Positions 1-49,494 of a stretch of DNA of 64,000 nucleotides are shown piece by piece. The position numbers and the translations under genes are program-made. The stretch covers positions 34,762,557 through 34,826,556 of the forward strand of contig CM055113.1 in the NCBI GenBank assembly GCA_029204225.1, in the 5' to 3' direction. Every line of letters begins with the position of its first letter. Within the stretch, counting starts at the first letter, position 1. The notes below the pieces were generated by a model. That model worked only from the letters and a program-made list of their open reading frames with translations. It was not told where the DNA came from and made no database searches. The DNA comes from Diphasiastrum complanatum (Eukaryota; Streptophyta; Lycopodiopsida; Lycopodiales; Lycopodiaceae).

Positions 1-618
1 TTATCTATATTATAAGTAGGCAATGTGATAAGAGAATTATGAGAAGGAAAAAGGGTGTTGGGAGCTCTAGGGCCAACAAACGATGTCCTATTTCGTGTAG
101 GATCAAAATCTATACAATCATCTAGACTAATGCTTGTATCAATAAAAAAAAGTTTCTATATCTACAATCTTCGACTTTTCAGACTTTGTACCACTAGAAA
201 AAGCAGCTTCAGAAGTGGAAGGGCTAGCTTCCAAATCGTCAAAAATATTTAACAAAAAAAAAAACAAATGCAGATTGAAACTCAACAAATCTACATTTTT
301 TATTGCAAATTGGGCAATCATCTACAAACTTGAAATCATTATGGAACTTGGTGAACATTCTATCAAGCTTAGCTTTATAGTTATGCTTGTCGAGTGCCAC
401 CATGTCCTTATTCTAAAATCTGAATAAGGGAGTACTGAGTAGAGACTTAAGTTTAAAATAAATCTCATAAAATGCTTCCACACTAGGACCCTCAGTAATA
501 GAAGGAAAAATTTAAAAAAAGGAGAAAAAGGAGATTTGAAATACTCTAAATTATCACTAATACCAAATTCATGAGAAAAAGAAAGCAGACTAGAATCGAA
601 ATTAGATATTTTAAACAT
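1..618 (-). pseudogene. Gene 2, 5' part (unidentified protein, broken)
   Basis: Reading on the minus strand, an ATG at 618 opens a frame beginning MFKISNFDSS. It shifts frame in the T-rich run near 505-515 and then reads through a segment containing FPSITEGPSVEAFYEIYFKL, an in-frame TAG, and a Cys motif CPICNKKC near 300. It continues with further frame changes toward LDDCIDFDPTRNR and leaves the window at base 1. The start lies 23 bp below the nearest leader motif, which supports it. I do not recognise the family. The paired cysteines could bind a metal, but this is inference. The continuation is seen only in the right arm. Confidence 0.5.
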
Positions 619-640
619 AAAATACAGGAAAAAGATTTCA

Positions 641-872
641 AATATCGCTCTCAGGTGCAAAATGCTGGTCAGACAAGAACCTCAAGGCAATGTGCGCTCA
701 AAAGAGATATCAGAAAATAGGGTATCAGATCCGAAAACAAGTACAAAGATCAGAAAAGAAAGGAGACGTAAGACACGCTTGAAAGCGATACCGAACCAGA
801 CAGTATCGGTTCCAGGTGCAAGTATGTCAACAGAACGTAAATAGAGGCAAATGTGCCCTTGAAATCGATATT
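641..872. promoter_or_regulatory. Motif cluster A in the gene-2 leader (5 copies)
   Basis: Five degenerate copies of AATATCGnTnTCnAGCGC occur here: 641-658 and 803-819 in plus orientation; 694-710, 775-790 and 853-872 in minus orientation. The most constant parts are TATCG at one end and AG(C/G)(G/T)C at the other. The position downstream of the gene-2 TATA-like box puts the copies in the presumed 5' leader. Confidence 0.6.
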
Positions 873-921
873 CAGCTCAGAAATCAGGAAATTTGCATAA
901 AAATCCATGCCGAAAATGACG

Positions 922-929
922 TATTATAG
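922..929 (-). promoter_or_regulatory. TATA-like box for gene 2
   Basis: The minus strand reads TCTATAATAC here, about 300 bp upstream of the gene-2 ATG at 618. A TGACGTA element (as-1/CRE-like) lies next to it at 916-922. Position and composition fit a core promoter; this is inferred from motif only. Confidence 0.35.
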
Positions 930-1037
930 AAAAAATTGCATGTGTCGAGGAGTTTCGAAATTCCGAAAGGACACATGTCGACACAGGATTCATCAAAAAT
1001 ATTTTGCCGTACAAGGAATGATTGATCTGACATTTAT

Positions 1038-1190
1038 CACGTGCAGAATGACACGTGTCACAATATGATTAGTGCACGTGTCCTACACCCACGTGGCCTC
1101 ATACATAACGAGCCATAATTGGCAGTATGGACATAACACATGGACCAGTTACATGCTGCCACATGTCAGCAGCCGTTTTCTTCACACGTG
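1038..1190. promoter_or_regulatory. Cluster of five G-boxes (CACGTG)
   Basis: Exact CACGTG hexamers occur at 1038, 1052, 1075, 1090 and 1185. Several have ABRE-like flanks (ACACGTGTC, CCACGTGGC). In plants such boxes bind bZIP and bHLH factors. Five in about 150 bp midway between two divergent starts is far above chance for AT-rich DNA. Confidence 0.6.
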
Positions 1191-1200
1191 CGAACATTTT

Positions 1201-1210
1201 CTATATACTT
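1201..1210 (+). promoter_or_regulatory. TATA box for gene 1
   Basis: CTATATACTT lies 11 bp after the last G-box and 340 bp upstream of the ATG at 1541, giving a predicted leader of about 310 nt, similar in length to that of gene 2 on the other side. Confidence 0.45.
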
Positions 1211-1260
1211 TGCCTCTGAATTTTTATTTTTTTCTCGTAATTTTTTTGTTTTTCACTCCC

Positions 1261-1489
1261 AATATCGCTCTCAAGCGCGCTCTCTGTCCGCAATCACTCC
1301 ACCTTCTCATCCGCGCTCGGCACCGATACCACTGTATTTCCAATATCGCTTTCGAGCGTGGTTTAGGGTTCTTCTGATATTCTCTTTTTATCTTGCGCTC
1401 GAAACCGATATTTAGTTCTGGCATCGATCTCAAGTGCCTTCTTATCACAATTTTTTTTGTTTTCATTCTCTGCGCTTGGGTTCGATAAT
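1261..1489. promoter_or_regulatory. Motif cluster B in the gene-1 leader (6 copies) with telo-box
   Basis: Six copies of the cluster-A motif occur: 1261-1278, 1342-1359 and 1421-1437 in plus orientation; 1313-1330, 1395-1412 and 1472-1489 in minus orientation. GTTTAGGGTT at 1361-1370 is the complement of a telo-box (AACCCTAAAC), an element common in promoters and leaders of plant histone, ribosomal and replication genes, which suits a histone-like gene downstream. Confidence 0.6.
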
Positions 1490-1540
1490 CAGCTTATAGA
1501 CTATTTTTTTTTAAATTTATTTATTTTTATTCTGAGAATG

Positions 1541-1990
1541 ATGGCTAGGACAAAATCCAATTCTCATTTCATAACCTTTGTACAGCCATTCCATGCCCAT
1601 GTTCCCCCTGGTATTGGCTGTAGATGTGGCAGAAAGCAAGGTTGGCTGAGGGAGACAAGAAAACTTAAGAGATCAACTGGATTGTTGATCCCTACAACTC
1701 CTTTCGGCCGATCTGTGAGAAATGTCACTTGGGCTAGATATTTGTTTTGTCGTGATAGCCATGCAGGCCTTACACGGTGTTGCTGAAGATTTTCTATCCC
1801 AGTTTTTTGAGGATTCTCGTCTTTTGGCCGTGCATGGTAAGCGTATCACCATCATGTCAAAAGTATTTTTCTGATCTCTGAATCAGATGCTGGAGAATCT
1901 GATTTAGACCGAGAATCACCCTCTGCTCCTCATGTTATTCGTCCAGCTCCTCAGAAGGTTTCTTCACCAAAAGTGAAGATTATCCAAGAG
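1541..1990 (+). pseudogene. Gene 1, 5' part: histone H3-like fold, then acidic stretch (broken)
   Basis: The frame starts MARTK, the first five residues of histone H3 and of CENH3. It then reads LRETRKLKRSTGLLIPTTPF followed by RSVRNVT, matching the H3 alphaN/alpha1 region. After a 1-nt frameshift near 1735 it reads MQALHGVAEDFLSQFFEDS and LAVHGKRITIM, matching H3 alpha2, loop 2 and the start of alpha3 (H3 [25 protein letters not shown] region). LLIP and AEDFL resemble CENH3 (LLIPAASF, AEDYL) more than canonical H3 (LLIRKLPF, AEAYL). A second shift near 1865 leads into an acidic segment (SESDAGESDLDRESPSAP). Copia-1 interrupts the frame at 1990; the reading frame resumes at 6111. The N-tail lacks the canonical QTARKS residues. 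The histone assignment is fairly secure; the rest of the protein is unknown. Confidence 0.65.
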
Positions 1991-2653
1991 TGTTGGAATT
2001 AAGCAATTTTCACATGGTTTTTGATTTATTTTGACATCTATGTGGATCCACACAGAGGAGCTGTCCACATGAGTGAAATGACACTTGTAATATTGAGATC
2101 CATTATGATTAGCTTTCATTTGAGTCTAATATGACATCTCCTAAATTATAGGAGTTAGGTCCTAGATTGTAGGAATCTAGAAGGTCCACACAAACCACCA
2201 ATGGATGATGTGGCAAACCTGATAGATCTTATCCAAACTGGATATGGATGAGTACAATGAGCTGTCCCACACGTGCTGGATGCAGCTTAGAGAGAGAGTA
2301 TTGTGATTTTGTACTTGATCCATGATGGATCCATTATTGAGCTAATGATGATAAATCTTGGTTTGTGAGGCAATCTTTGTGTTTTGACTCTCTTAAGCTC
2401 TTTCTTTGTGGATGAATGCTTAGTAAATGATAAGTAAACTATTTCTCTGTTATCAGGCCATACAGTAGCTATAATTCACACGTGTGAAGCCATGGATCAC
2501 CTTTTTTGATTGTTTTTGCTTGGAATCACAAAGATTGTCAAGTAGAAGCTAGATTTGGAAGCAATCTTGATATAGATCAAGATCCCAAGCTACCAATCAC
2601 TCTTTGTGGTCATTTGTAGATCATTTTCAGTCCTTAAACTCTGAAGTTTGACA
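1991..2653 (+). repeat. Copia-1 5' LTR
   Basis: 663 bp, TG...CA ends. It differs from the 3' LTR at many positions; the first 27 bases alone carry three substitutions, plus a changed stretch after GTGGATCCACA. The LTR contains a palindromic CACACGTGTGAA box near 2477-2488, a G-box-type element that may drive the element's transcription. Confidence 0.92.
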
Positions 2654-2666
2654 TGGTATCAGAGCC
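2654..2666 (+). other. Copia-1 primer-binding site
   Basis: TGGTATCAGAGCC directly follows the 5' LTR. It is the usual copia primer site complementary to initiator tRNA-Met. Confidence 0.9.
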
Positions 2667-2741
2667 AAGTCAAAGAGCTTAGTTGATGATCCAAAGCAAG
2701 GAAGGCTTTTTAAGCTTGATGCTAATGTTTTTCTTGGAAGT

Positions 2742-5436
2742 GTGAACATGGTGAAGGAGGAGCTCAATCAAGTGGAGCTCTGGCATAAGAGGTTGGGCCA
2801 CCCCAACTTCAAATCTATGGAGATGCTATGCACCAAGGATCTTGCTCTTGGCCTTCCAAAGACACTCTCAAAGTGTGGAAAAAGTTGTCAAGCTTGTAGT
2901 CCTCAAAGGCACACAAGCTACCATTTGATATCTCTTCCACTAGATCTACAAAAACATTAGATCTTATTCATAGTGATGTGCACTCTTTTTCTCAAGAATC
3001 TAATGGAGGTTCGTCTATGTATGTATCTTTTATTGATGATTACTCTAGATACACTTGGATTGAACTTTTGGATTCCAAAAGTAAAGTGTTTGAAGCTTTT
3101 GTTAAGTTCAAAACTCTAGCTGAAAATCAACTTGATGCTAGAATTAAAGTATTGAGAAGTGATAATGGTGGAGAGTATATCTCCACCAAGATGATAGAGT
3201 TTTGTAAATTCAATGGCATTAAGAGAGAACTTACATGTACTTATAGTCCTCAACAAAATCGTATAGCCGAGAGCATGAATAGAACACTATGTGAGTGTGC
3301 TAAGGCTTTAAGGTTAGATGCATCTCTACCTAAGTCCTATTGGGGAGAGGCTATTATTTGTGCAACTTATTTGTATAATAGATTGCCATGTAAGCCCATT
3401 GGAGGCATAACATCTTATGAGGCTCTATTTTGTAAGAAGCCTAATCTTAAAGATCTAAGAATTTTCAGATCTACTTGCTATGTTTTTCAAGCATTAGATA
3501 CAAGAAAAAAGGATGATCCTACTTCTATTAAATGGATCTTTGTTGGTTATGCTGAAAATAGCAAGGGATATAGAGTCGATAATCCAATCACTAAGAAGAT
3601 TTTAGTGAGTAGAGATGTTACTTTTGATGAAGGTAACTACTACAAGTTGAATGAGAAAGCTTCTAATCCATCTTATGTCAAGGATCTTGTAAGGTTTGAG
3701 GAGGAGCCTACATGTGATCAAGATCTTGAAGATCCATCTCAAGATCTGAGGACTCCAAGGAGATCTACAAGAAGGAAGGCCGAGCCCTCGAGGCTCACCT
3801 ATGTTGACAAAGGTGAACAAAGGGAATATCTACATTCACTTACCTCTTATACTTTTCTAACTTCTATGTTTGATGAGCCAACTTGCTTTGAAGAAGCTAT
3901 GGAGTCACAAGAATGGACCAATGCCATGAAAAAAGAGTATTATGCTCTTATGGAGAATCATACATGGAAGCTTGTGGATCTTCCTCAAGGAAGAAAGCCA
4001 CTTGAGTGCAAATGGATCTATAGATTGAAGTGCAATCAAGATGGGAGCATCAACAAACACAAGGCAAGGCTAGTGGCAAAGGGGTTCTTGCAAACCAAGG
4101 GAATAGATTTTGATGAAACTTTTGCTCCTGTTGCTAAGCCAGTTTCCATAAGGTTGATTATTTCTCTTGTAACTACTTTCAATTGGCCTGTATTTCAACT
4201 TGATGTGACTAATGCTTTTCTCAATGGATATTTGGAAGAGGATATTTTCATGAGGCAACCCGAGGGCTTCATCAAAGAAGATCAAGAGGAAAAAGTGTGT
4301 TTGTTGCTAAGAAGCCTTTATGGGCTTAAGCAAGCACTAGAGCTTGGTACTCTAGGTTGAATACCTTCTTGAACTCTATTAAGTTTGTTGTAAGTGTTTA
4401 TGATCCTTCTTTGTACTTAAGATTTAATGTTGGTAAAATCATCATTCTCATTTTGTATGTTGATGACATTATCCTTGGTGGAAATGATCTTGATGGTATA
4501 CAAGAAGTGAAAGTAGCATTGTTTAAGGAGTTTAAGATGGTGGATCTTGGTAATCTTCATTTCATATTAGGAATAGAAGTCTCGAGAGGCAAGGATTAGA
4601 GTTTTATTTGTCAATCCAAATATGCTTCTTCTATCTTAGAAAAGTTTTAAATCAAAGATTGTAAAGGAGTAGAAACTCCTATGGAGCAAAATGTAAAAGT
4701 TTCCAAAAGTGATGATGAAGCATCCTTTGAGGACATCACACTATATAGGAGACTTGTAGGCTCCTTGATCTATCTTATTATAACTAGACTTGATCTAAGT
4801 TATAGTGTAGGCAAACTAAGCCAATCTATGCAAAATCCATTGGTTTGTCATTGGAAAAATGCAAAAAGGGTGTTGAGGTACATCTCGGCCACCAAGAACT
4901 TTGGCATTTTAAATGATGGATCTAATCTTGCCTTAAGGGCATATTCAAATGATGATTTTGCGGGTAATAAGGTTGATAGGAGATCCACAAGTGCTTTTGT
5001 CACCTTCCTTAGCAATGACATAGTGTCTTGGCTTTCCAAAAAGCAAGATATATATACTATTTCTCTATCGTCAACCGAATTGGAATACAAGGCACTAACA
5101 TCCACAACAAAGGAGATCCTATGGTTGAAGAGGCTTTTGGTGGAATTGCAAGTCATGGAGGCCGAGGAGCAGCCAACAATATTTTGTGACAACCAATCAA
5201 ATCAAGCATTAGCAACCAATCCCGCATTTCATGCAAGGAGCAAGCACATAGAGATTGCTCACCATTTTGTGAGGAAAAAGGTTCAAGCAAAGGAGATCAA
5301 GCTACATAATCTTTCTTCTTCAGATTGCCTTGCTGAGCTACTCACTAAAGCCTTGCCAAAGGCTTCATTTATCAAGTTAAGATCAGCCTTAGGAGTTGTA
5401 GATAGATGTACTATAGTTGTATCATGTAAAAATTGA
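2742..5436 (+). pseudogene. Copia-1 pol: integrase, reverse transcriptase, RNase H (broken)
   Basis: Domains in order: GAG-pre-integrase with HHCC residues (LWHKRLGH ... CGKSCQAC, 2742-2955); integrase core with SDVHS, RSDNGGEY and the catalytic E in NRIAESMNR (to about 3500); reverse transcriptase from KKEYYALMENHTWKLVDLP through LDVTNAFLNGYLEEDI and LYVDDIIL (about 3925-4600); RNase H with SSTELEY and FCDNQSNQA, ending in LLTKALPKASF (to 5436). Breaks: a frameshift near 2945, another near 4340 just after LYGLKQA, an in-frame TAG at 4597 and a TAA near 4648. Gag and protease are absent. The YVDD and RNase H residues remain, but the pol cannot be translated as one chain. Confidence 0.92.
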
Positions 5437-5443
5437 GGATGAG

Positions 5444-6110
5444 TGTTAGAAATAAGCAATTTTTACATGGTTTTTGATTTATTTTGACATCTATGTGGAT
5501 CCACATGTGCAAGGACCTGTCCACACGTGTGAAATGACACTTGTAATATTCAGATCCATTTTGATTAGCTTTCATTTGAGTCTAATATGACATCTCCTAA
5601 ATTATAGGAGTTAGGTCCTAGATTGTAGGAATCTAGAAGGTCAACACAAACCACCAATGGATGATGTGGCAAACTTGATAGATCTTATCCAATCTGGATA
5701 TGGATGAGTACAATGAGCTGTCCCACACGTGCTGGATGCAGCTTAGAGAGAGAGTATTGTGATTTTGTACTTGATCCATGATGGATCCATTATTGAGCTA
5801 ATGATGATAAATCTTGGTTTGTGAAGCAATCTTTGTGTTTTGACACTCTTAAGCACTTTCTTTGTGGATGAATGCTTAGTAAATGATATGTAAACTATTT
5901 CTATGTTGTCAGGCCGTATAGTAGCTGTACTTCACACGTGTGAATCCGTGGATCATCTTTTATTATTGTTCTTGCTTGGAATCACAAAGATTGTCAAGTA
6001 GAAGCTAGATTTGGAAGCTAGTCTTCATATAGATCAAGATCCCATGCTACCAATCACTCTTTGTGATCATTTGTAGATGAATTTCAGTCCTTAAACTCTG
6101 AAATTTGACA
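5444..6110 (+). repeat. Copia-1 3' LTR
   Basis: 667 bp, starting TGTTAGAAATAAGC after the purine-rich GAGGATGAG and ending TTTGACA before the target duplication. It carries CACACGTGTGAA near 5522 and 5938. Confidence 0.92.
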
Positions 6111-7304
6111 AAGAGGAGCTCGACAAAATAACCGAAAAATCTATAAATATTGTGTCTACTTCTCTTTCTGCTCTTGTACATAATCTTTTTGTCAGAATTC
6201 CATATGATTCCATGCAAGTTTATTTTGATTCCGAGCATTATAACCAATACGAGGCTTACTTAGCTAATAAAATTGATCTTCTTGGCAATTATTTTGATTT
6301 CTTTCTTCCAGATTCAAATATAAACTATAGATTAGGTCCCAAATTTTGTGTCGAGCTGAAAGAAAAAGCATCAAAGATTACAGATGTTATGATAGAAGCC
6401 GAAGGAAACTTTTTGCAACATAGTATTAGTTCTGATTCTCATGGTGTAGTTTTTGTTGTTAGTCCATTTTTTATGGGAGCGGTGAAGGCAAAAGACGCCA
6501 ATTTTGAAAGGGCTGTATATTTCATCGAATGCAGTCCAATGGCAAAGAGAATCAGTAAGGATTTCTCGATTGTTTTTATTGCTTTAATTTGGATTGTTGC
6601 AGTCAGCATTGCTTTCGTAAGTAAGGATTGTTTTGATTTTTATTTTGATTGTTGCAGTCAGCATTGGAACCTGAACATTCTTTCTGTAAAAATGAATGAG
6701 GGAGTATCAAATTTTCTATGTGTATAAGTAAACTCAGCTGCTAATACACATACATAGAGAAGTTGATTTTTTACTTCATGATGTCATTCGAGAAATACCT
6801 ACAACGACAACCTCAATTGGAGGGATAACCATTAAATCTCTCGAGGCATATTCAATTTATCTCTGATAGGCATGTATTTTTTTTTGGTTTAAATCTATCA
6901 TCATAGTATAAATAAATTTTTTGTCGTAATATTACTAAATGCAGTGTATACAATAAAGAGACACTTTTAGTTGTGCATGGTTCGTCTTGTACAATACAAA
7001 GCTCTTTTTTGAGTGATATAATTTACAAGTGGATGTAGATGTTGAAAATGTAATATTTTGTTCATTTGTAGTTTCTTTCATTCTGATTCATATTTCTTTA
7101 CTATCATTGTTTGTAATTTGCTGATTCACGTGTTTTGTGATGATAGTTCACTCTTGAGTTGTATACTCCCGACGATGTATATAGATTTCGGCAAGAGTTG
7201 ATCAGAATCTATGTACAGAACAGTGTAAGCATTACACCTAAAATCGAGGGCCCTAAAAAGCAATTTGCTCCTGCCTTAATAGCCTTTTAGGTTGCTCAGG
7301 ATGC
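6111..7304 (+). pseudogene. Gene 1, distal exons (unidentified protein, broken)
   Basis: After the target duplication the frame of gene 1 resumes as EELDKITEKSINIVSTSLSA and runs to SPMAKRIS at about 6554, where GTAAGG is a fair donor. Acceptors TTGTTGCAG occur at 6602 and 6657; the second opens SALEPEHSFCKNE, which then meets a TGA. A further open segment (REVDFLLHDVIREIPTTTTS) lies at about 6755-6850, and an exon after GATGATAG reads FTLELYTPDDVYRFRQELIR at about 7148-7290. The chain is then cut by the junction with the repeated segment near 7311. Codon use looks coding, but I recognise no domain. No plant H3 variant known to me has such an extension. Confidence 0.5.
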
Positions 7305-7324
7305 AGATATTAAGAGTTTCTATC

Positions 7325-7602
7325 GACTCAAGCAAACACCTAGAGGTTGGTACTTTAAGTTGCATATCTATCTCAACTCCCTTGGATTTGTGATAAACTC
7401 TTATGTGTCTTCATTGTATGTCAAATGTAATGATGGTAAGATCATTTTTATGGTTTTATATGTTGATGATATTATTGTTACAAGAAATGATCTTAGTGAC
7501 ATAAGAGATGTCAAGATAGCATTGTCTAGTGAGTTTAATGCATTGATTATTGTCTCCACGTATAGGCTCTTGCTTGTCTTTCCTTGTGATCACCGGTTTT
7601 AA
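7325..7602 (+). pseudogene. Copia RT fragment in segment R
   Basis: Reads YRLKQTPRGWYFKLHIYLNS and then FMVLYVDDIIVTRNDLSDIR, the palm of a copia reverse transcriptase with the YVDD catalytic box, then runs out of similarity after SSEF. About 85 residues of a domain that is normally over 240. No start codon of its own. Confidence 0.85.
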
Positions 7603-7738
7603 CATGTCCTTTGCTCAATCAAGCATTGCCTTAACATATAGAATCATTGCTTATCGTAGGTACTATTGTAGCCCTCAATGATGATAATGATATTCTTAGT
7701 TTATTAAGGGATTGTTAACGTAATTTAAAAAAAAAAAT

Positions 7739-8107
7739 TAGAAGTACATGGAGTTGTGCAAAGAGCTTCTACATTCATAGGGATTGGAACGGCCCGGATT
7801 TGCCCTAATCCTAGTATGAATGAGTGGTTACGAACTCTATCGTTTATGCATGCAGATATTGTGTTATACTATTTTTTTAAGACACGATTAAGGTTTAAAA
7901 TAAGTAAAACGATAAGATAGCTTGCGGACTCTTGGAAAGCATGGATATGCTCAAGAAGTTACAAGAATTGTACATTACCTGTTTGCTCTACGACAAGTAT
8001 GAGTATTGGTATGGCATGGATTTGCCCCACATTTCATGTACCGATCGAAGCTACTTGTTTGTTTACGATATGCTACATAGTTTATACAGTTTATTTTCAA
8101 ATGCATA
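7739..8107 (+). pseudogene. Gene-2 last-exon copy
   Basis: Matches the better-preserved exon at 57505-57879 (TFIGIGT...CPNPSMNEWLRTLSF...). A one-base deletion in the run after KISK (AGTAAAACGATAAG against AGTAAAAATGATAAG) breaks the frame. The upstream run of A and the AG before TAGAAGTACATGG resemble the acceptor in the 57.5-kb copy. Confidence 0.6.
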
Positions 8108-8515
8108 ATGATTAATTAAATTAAAAGATAAGGACCAAAACCATTACACTGATCAACATGCACTCGTCCTGATATGGTAACGATATTGTTCGGCCTGTCG
8201 CTATAAGCATTTTTCAGTAAGGGAAGATTGGACTATGAGCTTTCATTTACATTGCATGTTGATTAGTTAAGTAAACTTATTTTGTACATGGATAACAACT
8301 GACATTCAGCATTGACACGTCTTCCTCACTATGCTAACTTGCGCAGTTTTGTGTGGTGGGATGGTGGTAGTGGATGTTTTGAAATAGGTTTTGCTTTACG
8401 ATGCTTTATTAGTACTATATACTTTTAAGCTATGTTTTTTCTTGTTGATTTTATGAATAAAGGGTTTTAAAAGTTTTGGTCTTGACTTATTGGTCTTGAC
8501 TTGTCAAGAGTTCTG
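8108..8515. other. Non-coding part of segment R
   Basis: No coding signal. It includes a 278-bp piece (about 8238-8515) present in all four arm copies but missing from the diverged 57.4-58.7-kb copy. Ends with a tandem GTCTTGACT/GTCTTGACTTGTCAAGAG. Confidence 0.5.
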
Positions 8516-9684
8516 TTAATCTCTATCTATCACTACAATATTCTGGACGATTTTCGACCCTATTACCGAGGTTGCATCTTTTTGGAATCCAACAAAGATA
8601 AGCATAATAGCTAGCAAAGATGAGCGCAATAGCCAGCAACATTGACACCAGTAGCTAGAATGGCGAATGGAGATGAATGAGAGCGTCAGAATGGAGACGA
8701 GTGAGAGCACCAGAATGCAAGAATGCTAGAACCAACAAACCACAAATGAGGATGGAGATACAGCATGGAGAGCGCAAAAGATGCAAGAAGCAAGAATGCA
8801 AGAACTAGCAAAGGAGAATGGAGAGTGTGCGAATGGAGGATGGAGTAGATGGAGTGCCAATGGAGAACATAGCAAGTAGCAATACGTGATAGATGACGCT
8901 ACAATCGAAAGGTGAAAGGCGAAAAAACGTCTACAAATGCATCCAAAAACTCCATTTTTGGAAGGATTGATGGGCATGTGTACATTGTAAGACTACCATA
9001 ATCAATGAAAATTGCATCTCAATAATGTCTTATTTAATGCTGATATTAATAAATTTTGATATCATGATTTGATACACTGGTGGCATAGGGTAAAGGGGAC
9101 AAATTTGATCAGGTTATGGTGTATCCCTAGTATTGCCCGAGCCTAGACCACTCTAGCCAGGTTTCCAAAGCCAATACACAAGAATATGCACCTTTTCTAG
9201 GTATTGAAAAAGTAAATAACCAAAATGGTATGCTCTTTAATACCAGGCTGATACCACGCAAGACCCTACATACCTGCCCAACACTTGGAAAGAACTAATG
9301 TAGTGTTACCCTAGAAACTAGGGTTATGAATAGTGCGATATTCGTTTTTAAATGACGCACCCAAACACTAGCTCAGGTTTAAACTTTAGCTCAGGTTTTC
9401 ATTTTTTCACGTTCACCTTCGATGACACACCAAAACAGGAGCGGAAGTTTAAACTTTTGATTTTGTGGCAGTTTTTCTTTCCTCCGTTCCCGACGCTCTG
9501 ATCTCTCTTTCGCCAAGCGCTCTACAACACATTCGCTGCCTGCCTGCCTGCCAGCTTCACCGGCTTCACAATTCAGAGATAGCTCCAGAGGACTGTGTTT
9601 CACGGAAGGCGATATTGGAATTTAGCGTGTTTCAGGGTTCAGGGTTCAGTGTTAAACAATTGTGAGTAGCAGTATGCATAGGCA
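8516..9684 (-). repeat. Helicase-upstream segment, copy without the helicase gene
   Basis: This sequence lies directly upstream of the HLTF-like gene in the 37274-38417 copy, and here in inverted sense without that gene. It contains repeated short words such as GCAAGAATGCAAGAA and ATGGAGA in 8640-8860, and near the end a CT-rich leader-like stretch followed by TTCAGGGTTCAGGGTTCAGTG (9630-9651). Open frames in it start only at GTG or run antisense and are not convincing. It may hold the old promoter or leader of the helicase gene. Confidence 0.6.
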
Positions 9685-9827
9685 TTACCACAGTAGTTAG
9701 AATGTAGGCATTACCAAAAACTATAAAAACGACAACCAAACGATATTGGTTTTCATTCTCTCTCTACATAACCTCTCTCTAAAGTCAAACTTCTTAAAGG
9801 GCCAACTTTGAGTCCATATTTTTCCTA

Positions 9828-10828
9828 ATGAAATTCATATTCTTTCCTATTGATGGTGAATGCAAGATAGAAGGAATTGGTAGTGTACCAATTGGTATTG
9901 AATTCACTATAATTCGTAAAGATGTACTTTTTGTGCCTAATCTCACTATGAATCTCATTAGTGTTGGCAATATGCTAGATGATGGTTTCCAATTTGATTC
10001 TGGAAAGGATTGTTGCTTGGTTGAGAGGGATGGTGATGTGGTAGCAAGAGAAACTAGATGTGGTAAGGATTTTCAAAATTGATGCTAATCCTTGTGGAAG
10101 TGTGGCCAATATGATCTGGGATCATCTCAAGGAGGAGAGGCCAAGTGATCTACCTCAACTTATGTTCCAAGATGGTAAGGCTCATGAATATGGTGCTTTG
10201 GCAAAAGCATGTGGAGAGTTATTGCCAAGGAGGTCTACTTCTCAGCAATTCTCTTATCTTGTTCATTTGGATGATCTCATTTCATCATGTATAAGCAAAG
10301 GTGGTGTGATTTCATGTGACTTCTTATTTGAAGTCTTCAATTGGAGGTATCTCTTATCAATGGTGCTTGATATGAAGATTGCAATAGTTGATAGTTTGTC
10401 AATATTCCTTTGCATGAAAGGAATAAGGAGGATCTAATCTCAATCAAGAGGATGATGGTAGGATTCTCAAATCTATCAAAAATCCAAGTATATGATGGAT
10501 TTGCCAAGGCTTGAGGAGTTTTCTCAACACATGGTTCCAAGGAGATCTTCAAGAGGCAAGGCCAAGTATTTGTGGCTCACAATACATAGATAAGAGAGGC
10601 AATTTTTAGGTTGTATCCACTTCAACACATTTACTTTTGCTTCTCTTTCATTACTTGATGTACTATCTTGCTTTGTTGAGATTTCTACATCTCAAAATTG
10701 GATTGAGGCAATGGTTGTCTTGTATCATGCCTATAGTAGGGACATATTTATTTTCATTATTTGCTTAGATTTGTTTCCAAATCTTTTAGAAAACAAGTGG
10801 TTGTGTCATCAAGTATATGCTCTTGGTT
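9828..10828 (+). pseudogene. Copia-3 fragment: protease end to RT hinge (broken)
   Basis: 9828-10080 reads IIRKDVLFVPNLTMNLISVG, the typical C-terminal part of copia protease leading into GAG-pre-integrase. 10060-10437 stays open but is only loosely copia-like (KIDANPCGSVANM). 10490-10820 reads MVPRRSSRGKAKYLW and then NWIEAMVVLYHAYSR, the hinge between integrase and RT. Integrase core is missing. Copia-2 is inserted at its right edge (target CTAGT at 10829). Confidence 0.65.
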
Positions 10829-10833
10829 CTAGT

Positions 10834-11780
10834 TGTTGGAAAGACGTGGGGGAAAGATAGGTCGAACTCAAAAAAAAAAAACTCGAATAAAAAGAATTTG
10901 AACAACATGAATTAGAACTTATCGTGCGTAGCGGAATAAACTATCATTCTCTTTCTTCATGCATGACTATGCCTATCAATTTCAAACAAAACAATAGTGA
11001 TAGAAATCACATTTGATTTTATAGTAACTAACTTTGAAATCATTAGTACTATAGTGATTATGTAGCCAAACATTAAGCATCAAATTATTAGACAAATAAT
11101 TAGTCGCGAAACATTAGACAAATAATTAGTCACGAGAAACTACAAAAATACATACATTCTGAGATAAAGCTGAACACAATTAGAAGATAGTATTGATTCA
11201 ATATGGAAGCGAAACAAATGTAGATGAGTACAAGAAGTTGCAGATCAAAGCCGCGTATTCTAAGCTATTTCTGAACGGCTAAAATGTAAGTCTGAATTAA
11301 GTGCAACTATTGATAAGCAATAAGCGCAATAGCAATCTTTAATCAACTGTAAAGAACTGAGCTAGAATGCTCAAGAGTGTACAAGCTCGAAGGCTTGAGA
11401 GAGAGAGAGATAACTATTCCATACTTGATCATAAGATGTTGATCATGTTCTGATGCTTGATCTGATCCTAAGATGTTGAAATATGAATAGCTATTTATAC
11501 TAAGCAATTAGGTTGTCAAAAACGTTCATCTAGTTGGCTGTGATGTGCTGGAATCTATCCAGTTAGGACTTCTCAAAAACCACTTGCTGATGAATTAATA
11601 CAAGTCATTGGCTTTGGTCGTAAACAGTTTGTTTGTAGAAATGAACGTGAAATGTCACTGGGAGCCATTTCGAGTAGTTATGCAGTATGTGTAAAAACAT
11701 GAAGAAAAATGCAGGTTTGGGTAAAAGTTGGACGAAGATTAAAATGTCAATTGATCGATTAGTGAGAGGATAATCCAACA
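10834..11780 (-). repeat. Copia-2 3' LTR
   Basis: 947 bp with TGTTGGA...TCCAACA ends on either strand, forming a 7-bp terminal inverted repeat. The minus strand carries a CTCTCTCTCTC run (complement of about 11398-11412). Confidence 0.9.
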
Positions 11781-14700
11781 CTCCCCCTTAATCTGAATCC
11801 ATGAATGCCTTGACTCTTAAACTTAGTTTTGCACAAAACTTTATGTGTGCATCCAAGCTTAATGCTTTAGTAAAAATATTCGCTATCATATCTTGCGTTC
11901 GACAGTACTGCAATCTAACCTCTCTGTTGAGAACTTTGCTTCTGAGATAGTGATACTTAAGTTCAATGTGCTTACTCCTAGAATGAAATCTAGGGTTGGC
12001 TAACAAGGCAATGGCACTTTGATTATCACAAAATAATAATGTCGGAGCATATTGACTCAGACGGATATCTGAAAGTAAGTTTCTCAACCAAATTGTTTTC
12101 TTAGTAGCTTGTGAGGTTGCGATGTACTCTGATTCTATAGAAGATAAAGCTATCAAAGATTGCTTGAGATTGTTCCAAGAAATTGGACCATTGTTGAGGA
12201 AGAATGTAAATCTAGAAGTAGATTTACGAGTGTCTATATCTCCTGCCCAACTTGCATCTGTGTAACGACTGAGTAGATTGAGTTTGTCGTTGTCGACTGC
12301 TCCAAAACAAATGCAAACATCCATAGTACCTCGACGATATCTCATGACTCTGATGAGAGCCTTCCAATGTGTTATACCAGGGTTCGTCATATACTGACTT
12401 AGGGAGCTGACTGCAAAATCTATGTTTGGCCTGGTACAGATCATTGTGTACATACAAGATCCTATTATTGAATGATAAGGATACTAGCGCATCTGCTCCT
12501 TTTCTTCGATTGTTCGAGGACACTGGTCCTTTGACAATTTGAGACCTAGTTCCATTGGTGAGAGAGCTAACATGCAATTAACCATATTATATCTGACTAA
12601 CATATTGCAGGTGTGACTCTGTTGAGTAATGTAGATCAACTTTTGATTTTTGTCTTTATAAATTTGAATACGAATGCAGAAATGAACTTCGTCCAGATCA
12701 GTCATGTCGATTTCAGATCAATGTGTAGTCCATGTACAAAGTGATAATGATAAAGGACTGCTGCACTATCTTGGAGTAAACATTCGAATTTGAGGAGGTT
12801 GGTGTATAGACATGATTAATAAGGAAAGTATCGATCCTTTGAAACCATGCTCGAGCAAATTGCTTCAAGTCATAAAGTGCCTTATGGAGTTTACACACAT
12901 GATTGTGTTTACCCTCAATAATATATTGTTCGGGTTGCACCATGTAAATGTCTTCTTCGATAACTCCATTGAGATATGTTGTCTGTACATCCATTTGATG
13001 TATTTCCAAATCTGCTGCAGCAGCAAATGATAATAAAAGTCGAATAGAAGATTGTTTGACTACTGGACTGAAAGTGTAATCAACATTGTATACTTAAGAA
13101 AATCCTCTGGCGACAAGTCGATCTTTTCTTCTGCCGATGATTCCGTTTGCTGTGTACTTGACTTTGAAAATCCATTTGCAATCAACTACATTTCTGCAAT
13201 CCTCCATGTCTAGTTCCTGATAAGAGATGAATACTCTTTATCCATACCTTCTTTCCAGAGATCGGAATCGAACTGACTAAGTGCCTCTTCGACAGTAGTC
13301 AGCTCCCGAACAAGATAAGTTGTAGACTCATCAATATACCTGATAGGTGGTCTACTAGTTCTTGATGATCTTCTGGAGAATAGAAGAAATCAATCACTTT
13401 CATCATGCTATAGTTGCTGAACTGCAACATCATCATCTTCGGATTTGTCATTGATATGTTGTTCATCAAAAGTAGATGAGCTTGGACCTTCGATGTGAAT
13501 AGTCGATTGAGGAACTGGAATGTTCAATGTGTCAGATGAAACCGAAGAGTCATCTATATGGGCTTTGCCTTTTCCCTTGAGGTCGATAAATTGATCTTCG
13601 ATGAAGATGACATCCCCGCTATTGAATATCTTCGACTCGATAGGGTCGAACAATTTGTAGGCTTGATCTGAAGTAGTGTAGCTAATGAAAATACATTTGA
13701 TACTCTAGAAGTCGAGCTTCTTCCTGAGATCATGAGGAATTTGCACATAAGCAGTACATCCAAAAGCTCGTAAGTTTGATAAAGAAGGTTTGGTACATGT
13801 CCAAACTTCGAATGGTGTTTTGTCTGAGAGACCTTTAGTAGGACATATGTTCTGAATATAGGTTGCTATTGAAACAACTTCTGCCTAGAAGGACTTCGGA
13901 AGTGTCCCTTTGCCGATTCGACTAAGGTTCTGTTCTATCTCTCAACAAGACCATTTGACTGAGGCGAATACGAGGTAATGTATTGTTGCTCAATGCCGTT
14001 GTTAAGGCAGTACTCCTTGAATTCGGTGGAGATGTATTCTCTCCCATTATCAGATCTCAGTGCTTTGATTTGTTTACCAGTTTGATTTTTTGCATGCTCT
14101 TTGAATTGTTTGAACTTTTCTTGGATCTCATGGTTATTGCATTTGTAATACCTGCAAAACATCTTCTTCTTCGACGAATGTGGATTCGATAATTGTTCTT
14201 GACTTTGAGTCTGTTTCTGATTTGATGTAGACTTCTTGGAGCTTTTCTGCTTTCATCGTTTTGAGCTCTTGTTGACATATAGAGCATGAGATGAAGAGGT
14301 AGATGAACTGTCTTGACTTCTTCAATTATCTTCTTGCAGCAACATAGTGATAACTTTGGTAAGAGTTAAATCTGAGTGTGTTGTGATGATCATCACCCAG
14401 TTCTCATAGGTAGAGGGCAAGCTTGAAAGCAATGTCATAATTGTGTCTTGATCATCTATGACTGATCCAATATCGGCCATCTATTGCAAGAGATTCTTAA
14501 ACTAGTTAATATCATTCTAAAGAGAATCTTTATTTGACATCTTGAGTGTGAAGAATTTTTTTCAAAGATGTAACTTAGTAATTACGTCTCTCACATCATA
14601 TAGTGAGCTCAAGATGTCCCAAACTTCTCTCAAAGTTTTGGCTTCAGCTACATGGCCAATCTGAGTATCTGATATATTGAGGATAATAATTGCGAAGACT

Positions 14701-14882
14701 TTACCATCCTTCAATTTCCATTTCAAGTCGTCTGTGTCATCTTCAGGCTTCAATTCGATACTTGTAACAACATCCCACAACTTGTTGGCGATTAGCAAGG
14801 TCTTCATCTTAGATTTCCATAAATGATAATTGGATCCATTCAACTTGTCTGCGATAATACCGGGGTTACTTTGAGAATCCAT
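11781..14882 (-). pseudogene. Copia-2 gag-pol (internally deleted, broken)
   Basis: Minus strand. Gag starts at 14882 (MDSQSNPGIIADKLNGSNYH, a UBN2-type gag). Its zinc knuckle FCRYYKCNNHEIQ near 14155 runs directly into integrase EKFKQFKEHAKNQTGKQIKA then LRSDNGREYIS: an internal deletion has removed protease and the first part of integrase in frame. The integrase stops at a TAG after GLVER (about 13935). RT pieces follow (MDVQTTYLNGVIEEDIYMVQ near 13000), where the usual YVDD reads YMDY. RNase H at 12453-11788 is intact with DASWAGD, SSIESEY and CDNQSA. Several stops and shifts separate the pieces. Confidence 0.9.
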
Positions 14883-15072
14883 CTAGAACTTTAGATTGTC
14901 GATGTTTCGATTATTGTTAAGAGAAAGATACAGTACTCTGGAAATCAATTCTCTAATACCGAAACAAATTGATTCGAGTTGAAGAATATTTTGCTATCAT
15001 GAAAGATATCAAGTATAAGAGCTTGCGCTATGATACAGTATTAGGCCTTGAAGAATCAACGCTTTGATACCA

Positions 15073-15626
15073 TGTTGGAAAGAAGTGTGTGAAAGATAGG
15101 TCGAACTCGAAAAAAAATGAACTCGAATAAAAACAATTCGAACGACAAGAATTAGAACTTGTCGTGCGCAACGGAATAAACTATCTTCCTCTTGCTTCAT
15201 GCATGACTACGCCTATCAATTTCAGACAAAACAATAGTGATAGAGATCACGTTCGATCTTATAGTAACTAACTTTGAAGTCATTTGTCATATAATGTTGA
15301 TCATGTTTGTTGATGCTTGATTTGATCCTAAGATGTTGAAATATGAATAACAATTAGGTCGTCAAAAACGTTCACCAGTTGGTTGTGATGTGTTGACATC
15401 CATCCAGTTAGGACTTCTTAAAAACTACTTGCTGATGAATTAATGCAAGTCATTGGCTTTGGTCGTAAATAGTCTGTCTACAGAAATGAACATGAATTGT
15501 CACTGTGATCTGTTTCGAGTAGTTTAGCAGTCTGTGTAGAAACATGAAAAAAAATTGTAGGTCTAGATAAAAGTTGGACGAAGATTAAAATGTCGATTAG
15601 TCGATTAGTGAGAGAATAATCCAACA
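15073..15626 (-). repeat. Copia-2 5' LTR (internally deleted)
   Basis: 554 bp; matches both ends of the 947-bp 3' LTR and lacks the middle. Joined to the primer site at 15072. Confidence 0.88.
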
Positions 15627-15631
15627 CTAGT

Positions 15632-16912
15632 AAGAACAAGAATGATGTAATCTCTCATGGTTTGAAAAACCATGTTGTTCGATTTTGTGAGGTATTTTGT
15701 AAACTTCTCTTGAGAATAACTAAATCATCCACTAAGGACACTTACATCCTTGAGCAAGTATGTAGCCTCAAGAAGATCAAGATAGAAAATATACATGTTT
15801 GGTTGATCTATGTGAGGCAGAGAGCGCTCTTGACATAGATTTATGGAATAGATCTTGGTTTTCAATCTATGTGAAATCACCACATCTTAGGAGATCAAAA
15901 TCATAATTTGTGGCACTCACACATGTGTGAAATTCAACAACCTTGCATTTCACTAGCCTTCTTAGCAAAATAAATTGGTTTAGGGCTCTTGGTACAAGGG
16001 CTAACTATCTTGCAAGATAGTAAGTTAGGAGATTGTCTATAAGTAGGCAAGAGACATCATTTTGAGTATCTTTTGGCTCATTTTCAAATGAGAGAGCTTA
16101 GCCTCCTCTTTGTGAATGTGAGCCGTGGGAATAGAGGTTGTTAGGTCTCGTGTGCCCAATCCACATGAATCCCATCCCCATTTTGTATTTAATTTGCTTC
16201 TATCCCTTCAATTCAATTCCTGATTCCATGGAGTTTTATTTGTGATTTGTGTTTTATGGCTATATCAACATGATTCCATTGTGTTTCTCTTGATTCTAGC
16301 TCTAGTTTCATTACTATGGCTATTTGACTCGGTTTGACACACGACAATGACCTTTTCTCTGACATGGGAACCATTTCCTTTTCTTTGTCCATTAACCTTA
16401 TTATACAGTTAGTGGTTGGCTTGTTTCCTCCACTTTTTGAGAAAGACTTCATTGTAAATGTATAACCTTAACTTCTCTTGTAATAGAATTCCAAAATTTT
16501 CATCAAAAGAGAGTGTACTTTCCCACACCAATAGTGTGGTCACCAAGTTCTCACAAGATGCTAATAATCCATTGAGTGTATACTCTCTATATCCACATGG
16601 TCAATGACTTGGATTACATAGTTAATCATGTACCTTCTTAATCTTGTCAAGTATTTCATCATGGTCTGAACTTCACTCATTTCCATCATGTAAAACCTTT
16701 GCTTCAAGAGCAATATTTGTATTGACGGTGTAAATTGGAACATGGACTGCAATGTTCTCCATGCTTGAATTGGTGAGGAGGCAACACTAATGTATGGTAT
16801 TAGGTTATTATCTATCAACGTGTTGATAAGGCACAATGCCTTTCAAGCTCTTTTATCAAAATCGATTTACCTTCTTGGTAAATCCATTCTCATTATTACT
16901 TGATCTCACTTC
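15632..16912 (-). pseudogene. Copia-type gag remnant (UBN2-like) and flank
   Basis: On the minus strand 16836-16561 reads CLINTLIDNNLIPYISVAS, then QAWRTLQSMFQF and LLLKQRFYMMEMSEVQTMMK, a UBN2/gag-type helical domain; after stops it continues at 16452-16213 without a clear domain. 15632-16212 has no coding signal: it is AT-rich with CACACATGTGTG near 15930 and may be LTR-derived. The strand is opposite to the neighbouring copia-3 RT, so it comes from a separate element or an inversion. Confidence 0.6.
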
Positions 16913-17482
16913 TTGACCAATAGCCAAATTTCAAGAATCCATCATCACACCATATTTTGCTATTTAAATTTCCACATGGAAAATTTTGCCATCAAGATTG
17001 CTAGTATGAATGTCTCCGACTATGCAAAACCGACATTAATTATTAAAAAGAAGTTGGTTGCTCGTTTTTTCATAGGTCAAAGTGTTAAAATTGACAAAAT
17101 TCTAGCTTTGGATTCATGATTTTATGTACATAACTTGATCCCACACGAGTGGATGTTAAGCGCAATCAATTTCAAGGTGTGCCTCTTGAAGAAGAGTTTC
17201 TATCGACTCAAGCAAACACCTAGAGGTTGGTACTTTAAGTTGCATATCTATCTCAACTCCCTTGGATTTGTGATAAACTCTTATGTGTCTTCATTGTATG
17301 TCAAATGTAATGATGGTAAGATCATTTTTATGGTTTTATATGTTGATGATATTATTGTTACAAGAAATGATCTTAGTGACATAAGAGATGTCAAGATAGC
17401 ATTGTCTAGTGAGTTTAATGCATTGATTATTGTCTCCACGTATAGGCTCTTGCTTGTCTTTCCTTGTGATCACCGGTTTTAA
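16913..17482 (+). pseudogene. Copia-3 integrase-hinge and RT fragment
   Basis: 16913-17119 has the look of a copia hinge (KKLVARFFIGQSVKID). 17135-17482 reads KVCLLKKSFYRLKQTPRGW then LYVDDIIVTRNDL, reverse transcriptase with YVDD. The junction at 17193 is in the natural position inside KKSFYRLKQ, which identifies this as the source of the segment-R copy at 7311. Confidence 0.75.
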
Positions 17483-18399
17483 CATGTCCTTTGCTCAATC
17501 AAGCATTGCCTTAACATATAGAATCATTGCTTATCGTAGGTACTATTGTAGCCCTCAATGATGATAATGATATTCTTAGTTTATTAAGGGATTGTTAACG
17601 TAATTTAAAAAAAAAATTTAGAAGTACATGGAGTTGTGCAAAGAGCTTCTACATTCATAGGGATTGGAACGGCCCGGATTTGCCCTAATCCTAGTATGAA
17701 TGAGTGGTTACGAACTCTATCGTTTATGCATGCAGATATTGTGTTATACTATTTTTTTAAGACACGATTAAGGTTTAAAATAAGTAAAACGATAAGATAG
17801 CTTGCGGACTCTTGGAAAGCATGGATATGCTCAAGAAGTTACAAGAATTGTACATTACCTGTTTGCTCTACGACAAGTATGAGTATTGGTATGGCATGGA
17901 TTTGCCCCACACTTCATGTACCGATCGAAGCTACTTGTTTGTTTACGATATGCTACATAGTTTATACAGTTTATTTTCAAATGCATAATGATTAATTAGA
18001 TTAAAAGATAAGGACCAAAACCATTACACTGATCAACATGCACTCGTCCTGATATGGTAACGATATTGTTCGGCCTATCGCTATAAGCATTTTTCAGTAA
18101 GGGAAGATTGGACTATGAGCTTTCATTTACATTGCATGTTGATTAGTTAAGTAAACTTATTTTGTACATGGATAACAACTGACATTCAGCATTGACACGT
18201 CTTCCTCACTATGCTAACTTGCGCAGTTTTGTGTGGTGGGATGGTGGTAGTGGATGTTTTGAAATAGGTTTTGCTTTACGATGCTTTATTAGTACTATAT
18301 ACTTTTCAGCTATGTTTTTTCTTGTTGATTTTATAAATAAAGGGTTTTAAAAGTTTTGGTCTTGACTTATTGGTCTTGACTTGTCAAGAGTTCTGTTAA
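17193..18399 (+). repeat. Segment R, partial inner copy (left arm)
   Basis: Nearly identical to 7311-8516. It ends at TTCTGTTAA (18399), the inner end of the palindrome arm. It includes a gene-2 exon copy (about 17620-17988) with the same one-base deletion as at 7739-8107. Confidence 0.9.
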
Positions 18400-27620: not shown

Positions 27621-27980
27621 GGCCTTTTGTCAAGATGTTGTTTTTGACTTTTCAACTATTCGATGTACACTTGCCCAGTTAAATATTTACACTTGTGAAA
27701 GATCGTAATGTTGTTGCCGATCGATTTCTTTTTTGGAACTTTCCGGTCATATTTTTATACAATTCAAAACTCCCGTCGGGCAGGGTCCTAACTTGTGATT
27801 GGACCGTAATTGCTGCCCGTGAGTTTCCTGAGTGCCCGGGACCTTACACTTGCGGTTAAAGTAAGTCTATTTTGATCTAACCGTAGTTAGAGTAACATGT
27901 ATGATTTACGAAAGTCCGCCAACATTTATTACAAATTTGGTTATTTATTTTCATACTGATTCAACTACATTTTGTTTCAG

Positions 27981-29202
27981 ACTCTGTTGTTCATCTTCTT
28001 TTAGCCTTGCAATGGCTTCCGAAAGCCGCAGACCACGAAGCAATATTGTCTCAGTTTCTGTTGTAATGAAAAGGACTCTGATGGCTCTTGGATACCGCGT
28101 ATTTATAGAAAATTTCATTGGGTTCTCATGTATCCCTCATCAAGAGGTGTTTTTGGTAAAAAGAGAAAATCAAATATGGATTATAGGAATTTTTGGAAAG
28201 GTAGAATTTTAGACTTCAAATTTTCACCCGGTGGTCGATCCATTTCAGAGGTCTTGATTCAACATGTCTACATGCATAAGGAAATTAGAGTGGAAGGCAT
28301 AAGTTCAAATGACAGACTCAAATGCAATTGTAAGTTTTGGAGAATTTTTTGCATTGAGCTTTGTATTGGCCATTTAGACATGTATTTGAGTATTTAAATG
28401 ACATACAATTTTATGGATTTATGCAAATTTGTATCCATCAAGCATAATTCAATGGCAACCTATACAATCCCTTGTCGGCATCATGGACGTTATTCATTCT
28501 GATACTGGTCTTCTACAATACAAAAACTGCTCCACGAGATCACTTTTGGATTCTTGTATTTTCTTCTATGATTCATTTTACACACCATCTAGTTTAGGTG
28601 GAAAATTAGAGGCGATATCATTACCCTCTTTCTCAAGCGAAGAATGGATTCCTCCATATTCCACCATAGCAGAGAGCTTCTGATCAAGGTTTTTTATGGA
28701 CATTCAAAACTGTATGAAATGTAGCACAGGTTCAAAAAACAATAGATTGCACTGGTTTTTGCCTATTGCAATTTTTGTTGATTTTTTTGTTGAATGTAAT
28801 ATTCGTAGAATAGTGACAATGTTTATTTAAACTGATTTAACAGACAATATGCTATCAAGCCTCCTTGATGATCATTGGGATAAAAAGAGTAATGGCAATA
28901 TCGAGTGCATAGTTAATAGATCGTCAATGAAATTTAGATATCTTATAGAAAAACAAGTGCTTTCTTTAACATTTTATTATAGAAGATGGTCCAAAGTTGG
29001 CAATGGATGGAAAGCATTGGATCAGAGTTTTACAGTGAATCATCAAGATCAAATAGAGATCCAAGTGAGGACAAATAATTCTGCTCTTACAACAATTGAG
29101 GTGGAAGAAGATTGGACACTCGATCACATTCGATCAGAGCTTACATTGCTGCAATATGATATTCCTAAACACTTCTGTTTTCGAGTCAACGAGAGATTGG
29201 TA
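27981..29202 (+). pseudogene. Unidentified multi-exon gene, frame-broken
   Basis: An acceptor TTTCAG at 27980 opens DSVVHLLLALQWLPKAADHE. After a frame change near 28060 a long frame reads KFHWVLMYPSSRGVFGKKRK ... GGRSISEVLIQHVYMHKEIR and ends near 28330. Another open stretch covers 28441-28683 (QWQPIQSLVGIMDVI). The clearest exon is 28843-29202, between an AACAG acceptor and a GTAGGT donor: DDHWDKKSNGNIECIVNRSS ... WTLDHIRSELTLLQYDIPKH. A 30-bp mini-exon flanked by TGTTGCAG and GTAAAC may follow at about 29542-29571. I do not recognise the protein; the last exon has a ubiquitin-like feel only. Either a decayed host gene or one with unresolved splicing. Confidence 0.45.
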
Positions 29203-29290
29203 GGTGTATGTGTATTTATTTCAGTACTTATGGTTTACTATTTAGGAATAGAAATTAGAAGTTTCCAGTTTCAATTGAAATTAGTGAGTG

Positions 29291-30118
29291 GAGAGAGAGA
29301 GAGAGAGAGCTGACTTTTGAGAGACCTAAGACCACCATGCCGATGGGTAAGGGTCCCCTGTGGGAGCACGTTATGTTACTGCATACTATGGCACATCGGG
29401 CACTAAGAGATAGACATGCCAATATTGTTATACACTTGCACGGGTGAGCCTATGCGCATCAAGGTGCATTTATTACGCTGATGGGTTACGAGATTGTCCC
29501 TTGCATGCATGCTCCTAACGTACTATTCACTCCTGTTGCAGCGGATGAGGTTGGCCCTTTGAGGCTCAGAGGTAAACAATGAACACTCAACTCTCAGCTC
29601 TAGCCTCTCTCAGGTCTCAACTATCGAACTAAGTAGTACGATTTCAATTTTCATTCCACACCCACATGATAGATTATAATAGATTCATTTTTGGAAATTC
29701 GAAATTTGGTTTTTATCTAATATCGGTACTCATCAATGTTTTAACTTTATGTCATTTAAACATCAAACTAGTAGAGACTTAAGTAATATCCTATACAGTA
29801 TACTATATAGCCTACAGCCTATAGGTATACAATGAAATGTAATAGGTATGCCGTAAAGTACGAACATTTAAGTGTCTTTTTCTCCTTGAGGTTTAAATTT
29901 TGAAATTTGATTTTTGACGAACGACTCAAAGACTCATGACTTGAGTCTTATAAAATGCTTAATCTTCTTCTTAAATCACCAAATTAAACTACTTTTTCTG
30001 GCAGATTGAGATCAAGATGTGACCATGACAAAGCCAGAGGCTACCACATCAGGCCCCCTGGTCATCACCCCTCTCTTCTCATGGAGAGGTCAGAGCTCTA
30101 GTGAGCCAGGGCTTGGTA
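29291..30118. other. Intergenic, no gene seen
   Basis: Begins with a short GA run. Apart from the possible mini-exon at 29542-29571 nothing coding is supported; 30003-30102 is open for 32 codons after CTGGCAG but has no recognisable content. Confidence 0.35.
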
Positions 30119-35077: not shown

Positions 35078-35118
<41 letters not shown>

Positions 35119-39610: not shown

Positions 39611-39890
39611 TCTTCAAGAGGCACACCTTGAAATTGATTGCGCTTAACATCCACTCGTGTGGGATCAAGTTATGTACATAAAATCATGAATCCAAAGCTA
39701 GAATTTTGTCAATTTTAACACTTTGACCTATGAAAAAACGAGCAACCAACTTCTTTTTAATAATTAATGTCGGTTTTGCATAGTCGGAGACATTCATACT
39801 AGCAATCTTGATGGCAAAATTTTCCATGTGGAAATTTAAATAGCAAAATATGGTGTGATGATGGATTCTTGAAATTTGGCTATTGGTCAA
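39321..39890 (-). pseudogene. Copia-3 hinge and RT fragment (right arm)
   Basis: Partner of 16913-17482. It has an extra stop just before YRLKQ (TTGACTCAATAG against TCGACTC), so the RT frame that is open in the left arm is split here into two pieces. Confidence 0.75.
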
Positions 39891-45965: not shown

Positions 45966-45970
45966 ACTAG

Positions 45971-49488: not shown

Positions 49489-49494
49489 ATATCT

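Follow-up and report, generated by a model that had tools for sequence, protein, structure and literature searches.

We analyzed a stretch of 64,000 nucleotides from Diphasiastrum complanatum (Lycopodiaceae; assembly GCA_029204225.1, contig CM055113.1, positions 34,762,557 to 34,826,556 of the forward strand), which we call the window; its positions are counted from its first letter. Close to its left end lies a broken copy of a gene in which a histone H3-like part is fused to a C-terminal extension of no known family. Leaving its role aside, we are highly confident that it is an H3 fusion gene borne by a repeated DNA element. A first-pass annotation had described here an H3- or CENH3-like N-terminus starting with MARTK and joined to a long protein of unknown family, and had listed a component of a large mobile element among the possible explanations.

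The fusion gene in the window and in the genome

We compared the window by tblastn with an open copy of the same gene found elsewhere in the genome (locus L009, described below). The parts of the window copy are listed here; LTR stands for long terminal repeat and E for expectation value.

1541 to 1871, plus strand: the fusion gene's H3-like tail and histone fold, with a frame change near 1722-1735 (L009 frame, tblastn)
1865 to 1990, plus strand: acidic linker remnant (L009 residues 180-222, E 5.9e-11)
1991 to 6110, plus strand: Ty1/copia LTR retrotransposon within the fusion gene (LTR alignment, flanks, domains)
6098 to 6547, plus strand: C-terminal extension domain (L009 residues 217-367, E 8.5e-70; the first matched codons reach into the LTR end)

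The H3-like blocks noticed after MARTK are present and span two frames: positions 1541-1735 match L009 residues 1-65, and 1722-1871 match residues 64-113 (E 2.7e-39). About 66 linker residues (L009 residues 114-179) are missing ahead of the linker remnant, which is the acidic stretch seen earlier. Taken alone, the first H3 piece gave a match to Pfam Histone PF00125 under the cut-off (6.7e-4), and the second had no Pfam match. The residue-9 position of this copy is also without lysine.

The exon-like segments of the first-pass annotation proved to be largely the Ty1/copia insertion, which parts the H3-like section from the true extension; what stood was the segment at 6098-6547, which has no known family. 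The insertion has two LTRs (1991-2653 and 5444-6110; Kimura two-parameter distance 0.053), a target-site duplication (TSD) of AAGAG at 1986-1990 and 6111-6115, and the Pfam domains gag_pre-integrs, rve and RVT_2. A host gene with exons reaching position 7304 was rejected, because the middle of the region is copia. The window copy of the fusion gene is dead.

The source genome (1.74 Gb, 5176 contigs) was searched with the extension. We obtained 4982 first-look candidates, unconfirmed as copies, and each of the 150 that were scored gave a match at E 6.4e-65 or better. Twenty loci (L009-L028, 9.9 kb each), picked for long open frames or high scores, were fetched. Queries derived from the window detected the extension in 20 of 20 loci; in 20 of 20, too, the same strand has an H3-like match upstream of it, in some loci in pieces. 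At L009:3836-4963 there is an open frame of 376 codons without a stop, which encodes an H3-like tail, a complete H3 fold, a basic/acidic linker and the C-terminal domain. This frame matched Pfam Histone PF00125 at 1.7e-19; against PDB, CENP-A (9.1e-19) was narrowly ahead of H3.3 (4.7e-18). The best values of the extension against PDB and Pfam were E 0.072 and 0.15, which we take as chance. Intact paralogues could have held the two parts as separate genes; L009 and a second locus, L051, hold both in one frame. The fusion of histone and extension is genuine.

Diverged copies, tail and histone fold

A second search used Arabidopsis CENH3, and 150 of 5403 candidates were scored. Thirteen of them, all stop-free, scored at E 3.0e-28 to 6.8e-28; the one of these that was read, L052, is a canonical host H3 and has ARTKQTARKS, unlike the fusion protein. 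The remaining 137 scored at 1.3e-18 to 4.5e-14, several of them in stop-free open frames of 330-527 codons.

Locus L051 (contig C13) reads MARTKQTTRPKS... and in one open frame combines a complete fold (Pfam 3.5e-25) with a linker and an extension. Its extension is 32% identical to that of L009 (E 7e-17), and it matched a seven-copy profile with 98.1% probability in hhalign. The tail is ARTKQTTRPKS, with proline at position 9 and lysine at position 10. A search with a part of the L051 extension produced 3826 candidates, and the 150 that were scored all matched. Below the close relatives, some of these matches are near full length at 45-50% identity, a group that suggests a third lineage. One of its members, C2:54303878-54304180 (minus strand), lies approximately 350 bases downstream of an H3 match at C2:54304530-54304796 (minus strand), and the pair fits the same fusion. 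A different gene was observed at L050:614-1201 (minus strand), where an H3 fold (Pfam 6.1e-27) with another N-terminal part lies in an open frame of 391 codons. It is neither canonical H3 nor the fusion, and no extension was found within the fetched piece.

We counted residues among the 20 fetched copies wherever a letter was available. The tail starts with ARTKxTAR in most copies, and residue 4 is lysine in 14 of 15. Residue 9, lysine in canonical H3, is alanine in 16 of 17 copies and valine in one; residue 10, serine in H3, is isoleucine in 16 of 17. The canonical set of K4, K9 and K27 is not present in the tail, and L009 is without ARKS. In the fold, R72 was kept in 17 of 19 copies, H113 in 16 of 19, and K122 and D123 in 17 of 19 each. 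Position 83 is R in 9, H in 5 and C in 4 of 19 (one gap), the pattern expected from CpG decay of arginine.

Loop 1 has no insertion in comparison with H3.1, and 2-residue gaps appear in comparison with AtCENH3, ZmCENH3 and CENP-A. A CENH3 origin was set aside, because loop 1 is as long as in canonical H3 and the tail starts with ARTKxTAR, despite the top PDB scores to CENP-A; the CENH3 affinity proposed earlier is not favoured. What the protein shares with canonical H3 and CENH3 (CENP-A) is the complete H3 fold, the tail start of most copies and a loop 1 of H3 length. Unlike them, it has alanine in place of K9, a shorter tail, a replaced R63, a fused linker with a new domain, and a repeated element as its carrier.

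The element around the fusion gene

We inspected nine left and seven right ends of the element. Six of the left ends start with CATTAG, two (L036, L039) differ at the first base and one (L043) at the first bases; six of the right ends end with CTAATG and one (L022) with CTTATG. In one copy on contig C8 (copy A; L029 then L011) the ends bound 9248 bp (9.25 kb). They are inverted repeats, with 25 of the first 31 bases matching, a score reached in 0 of 2000 shuffles, and the flanks are without a repeat. A GGGCCC-type hairpin was seen inside each terminal inverted repeat (TIR). Two further end pairs lie inside copia-like reading frames on C2 (approximately 8.5 kb apart) and C3 (approximately 10.7 kb apart). 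Their flanks, joined as they stand, give uninterrupted integrase-like and gag-like frames (read by eye, without a domain search), so no base was duplicated on insertion. No TSD was found in 3 of 3 two-ended insertions (copy A, C2 and C3; for the latter two the sequence read comprises the ends). Both of these two presumably carry the H3 gene, since the ends are shared.

The right-end pattern had 1175 matches in the genome (591+584, at most 3 mismatches) and the left inner pattern 942 (483+459, at most 2 mismatches), with 0 for the control in both cases. Short or rearranged derivatives account for some of the right ends, so these totals are not counts of complete elements. The terminal repeats and the bounded 9.25-kb copy bear out the idea of a large mobile element. 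On contig C1, 14 of the 26 exact right ends among the matches listed fall within 1.8 Mb (C1:48431021-50241420), 12 of the 14 on one strand; this cluster may mark a centromere or else a local array.

In A-type copies the gene order, established from open frames and tblastn, is X (plus), Y (minus), H3 fusion (plus) and Z, the minus-strand frames at the right. Gene Y, which has no known family, lies upstream of the H3 fusion on the opposite strand in copies outside the window. Gene X contains the motifs GDLKTL, CLYC and HIYTLH in this order, without a recognised final acidic residue; no profile search that was run gave a match to it. An N-terminal piece of gene X reached 3.7e-4 against Pfam Borrelia BLYB, a sub-cut-off value taken as chance, and a likeness to RAG1, noted by eye, was unsupported by any profile. 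Locus L015 (3100-5239) has its left end approximately 1 kb ahead of the H3 gene; this copy lacks genes X and Y but keeps the H3 fusion. A frame at L013:9506-9901 (plus strand) resembles a Penelope-type reverse transcriptase by eye and has no Pfam match.

The CMCT clade (CACTA, Mirage, Chapaev, Transib, Plavaka, Lanisha) is described as having a transposase with D, C(2)C, H(3-4)H and E, mostly CA..TG ends and a TSD of 2-5 bp (PMC12730594). Our element resembles it in the CATTAG..CTAATG inverted-repeat ends and in gene X, where an acidic residue is followed by C(2)C and then by H(4)H. We do not assert membership, because gene X is without a profile match and the clade makes 2-5 bp duplications, whereas none was found in our three insertions. 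Spy elements are likewise described as inverted-repeat DNA transposons without a TSD; unlike in those, no PIF/Harbinger-type transposase was recognised in the element here. A Helitron was raised by the right-end hairpin followed by CTAA. It was dropped because the left end, which starts with CATTAG, proved to be the inverted repeat of the right end; no search for Rep/helicase genes in the genome was involved.

Constraint was assessed as dN/dS, the ratio of nonsynonymous to synonymous substitution rates, by the Nei-Gojobori method between paired copies; the five other frames served as control, and seven near-duplicate loci (L001-L005, L040, L041) were left out. The pairs share ancestry and are not independent, and the control frames are not at 1, so the raw ratio overstates constraint. 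For the extension the ratio was 0.33 (controls 0.49, 0.71, 0.72, 0.76, 0.78; 253 pairs), and for gene Y part 1 it was 0.37 (controls 0.54-0.97; 102 in-frame pairs). Gene X part 1 gave no frame-specific signal (0.63, controls 0.54-0.80; 114 in-frame pairs), so we do not claim its upkeep in the sampled copies. The linker and the tail gave 0.57 and 0.68 (20 copies, ratio of means, without frame controls). These values point to clear constraint on the extension and gene Y part 1, and to a modest one on the histone fold (values below).

The window contains two copies of the fusion locus, one in each arm of an inverted duplication (1-18399 / 38418-56813, 99.49% identical), which is either a genuine palindrome or a product of assembly. 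The second copy and the other features of the window are listed below.

54942 to 55272, minus strand: H3-like part, second copy (tblastn of the L009 frame)
54823 to 54948, minus strand: linker remnant, second copy (tblastn of the L009 frame)
50703 to 54825, minus strand: copia element, second copy (outer limits of two LTR matches)
50266 to 50715, minus strand: extension domain, second copy (tblastn of the L009 frame)
7291 to 7602, plus strand: separate copia reverse-transcriptase fragment outside the gene (RVT_2 2.2e-14)
9799 to 9830, minus strand: TIR-like sequence, possible right end of the element (6 of 32 mismatches, without a chance control)
56659 to 57243, plus strand: gene Y-like open frame of no known family (likeness to L013:2459-3697 by eye; no Pfam match)

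Near-identical copies of the extension were also seen on contig C22, within approximately 0.25 Mb and at 0.36 Mb. Between the duplication arms, at 33506-36995 (minus strand), SNF2, RING finger and helicase C domains lie in separate frames of a Rad5/SMARCA3-like gene. Frames at 27865-29313 (plus strand) resemble element gene Z (L013:6800-7282) by eye, with no Pfam family above the cut-off.

Possible role of the fusion protein

Methylation of H3K9 recruits DNA methylation in plants and silences transposons. Our preferred explanation, plausible rather than probable, is that the H3 without K9 encoded by the element helps it to escape heterochromatic silencing. The fusion protein would enter chromatin as a substitute for H3, or compete for H4 and the H3 chaperones. 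Because the tail keeps K4 and has no K9, nucleosomes with this protein should be incapable of taking H3K9 methylation, and such an H3 would be a poor substrate for the loop between H3K9 methylation and DNA methylation. Specificity may come from the extension, which would bind DNA or proteins of the element. A wider claim, which we hold more cautiously, is possible too: that a clade of plant DNA transposons brings its own silencing-proof H3, with K4 kept and K9 removed, which the new fused domain directs to the element; the parasite would then provide its chromatin itself.

Several observations weigh against escape from silencing. The lysine of L051 stands one place further on, so the loss of K9 is not identical across lineages. 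R63, a DNA-contacting residue of H3, is replaced in 18 of 19 copies (P in 16, L in 2, one gap). The whole frame is open in only one of the 20 fetched copies (L009), a figure that is not a genome-wide rate, because the loci were picked for long frames or high scores. The dN/dS of the histone fold, 0.42, is slightly under the lowest control of 0.48 (controls 0.48-0.81; 187 pairs), and that of gene Y part 2, 0.32, is not under the lowest control of 0.30 (controls 0.30-1.07; 64 pairs). Structure prediction for the extension was of low confidence (predicted local distance difference test score 44.9), and the role suggested for this domain derives solely from its conservation.

It is also conceivable, and in our judgment unlikely, that the histone fold docks the transposition complex on chromatin of a certain kind, such as that of centromeres or chromatin in the course of assembly, and in this way chooses insertion sites. 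The cluster of right ends on C1 (14 of the 26 exact ends listed, in 48.43-50.24 Mb of a 101.6-Mb contig) and the best PDB scores, to CENP-A, would agree with such targeting. However, the right ends are known among the matches listed, which are the first 100 exact ones and reach C12; of the 14 clustered ends, 12 are on one strand, none of the 16 listed C1 left-inner places falls in the cluster region, and the two C1 ends that were read are rearranged or short derivatives; loop 1, moreover, is not CENH3-like.

We consider it unlikely as well, slightly more so, that the protein never forms nucleosomes and acts as a decoy, binding H4 or H3 chaperones and keeping new or excised element DNA free of chromatin. 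Residues of the H4 side and the C-terminal part of the fold are mostly kept (H113 in 16 of 19; K122 and D123 in 17 of 19) while R63 is lost, and a long extension could hinder nucleosome stacking; yet other DNA-side positions are kept (R72 in 17 of 19; R83 with R 9, H 5, C 4 of 19).

Acquisition of gene fragments is common among plant DNA elements. A host H3 gene that was taken up, became fused accidentally and now rides along without function would agree with this habit and with the stops or frame changes in most fetched copies. Such a passenger is nevertheless improbable, as the extension is under constraint and the same fusion occurs in L051, whose extension is only 32% identical. An origin from an integrated DNA virus with a histone is very improbable: histone genes, a single H3 included, are known in DNA viruses such as those with bracovirus H4, phycodnavirus H3 and nudivirus Orf1 (PMC9145170, PMC5769502), but no relative was confirmed in IMG/VR contigs, no match was found in phages, the bounded copy measures 9.25 kb and ends in inverted repeats, and the element frames scanned contain no viral domain.

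If escape from silencing is the role, the fusion protein would be an anti-silencing factor that resembles VANC in effect and acts by a different route. VANC of the VANDAL (MuDR) elements is an accessory protein of a plant DNA element with anti-silencing activity and sequence-specific loss of DNA methylation (PMC5735166). Our protein would share with it the status of an accessory protein proposed to counter silencing; here it is a histone, and the effect is putative. DNA transposons with TET/JBP and SET genes carry chromatin-related cargo too (PMC12730594), although theirs are enzymes modifying DNA or histones. Our protein and the viral histones described above, some of which have additional domains, are alike in that a genetic parasite encodes the histone fold, while here the carrier is a TIR-bounded repeated plant element. 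No transposon-encoded histone was found among the titles and abstract openings listed in searches of open-access literature, which does not prove absence.

The copies of the element may inflate surveys of histone genes in such genomes, and the extension, a domain without a name of which many sequences exist, is available for structural work. Anti-silencing factors that bind DNA, demethylate it or modify histones are known from transposons, and histones from some DNA viruses. A conserved H3 without K9, joined to a new domain on a repeated element, would unite these two themes, and it makes testable the idea that an element may escape by replacing the substrate of silencing, not by erasing its marks.

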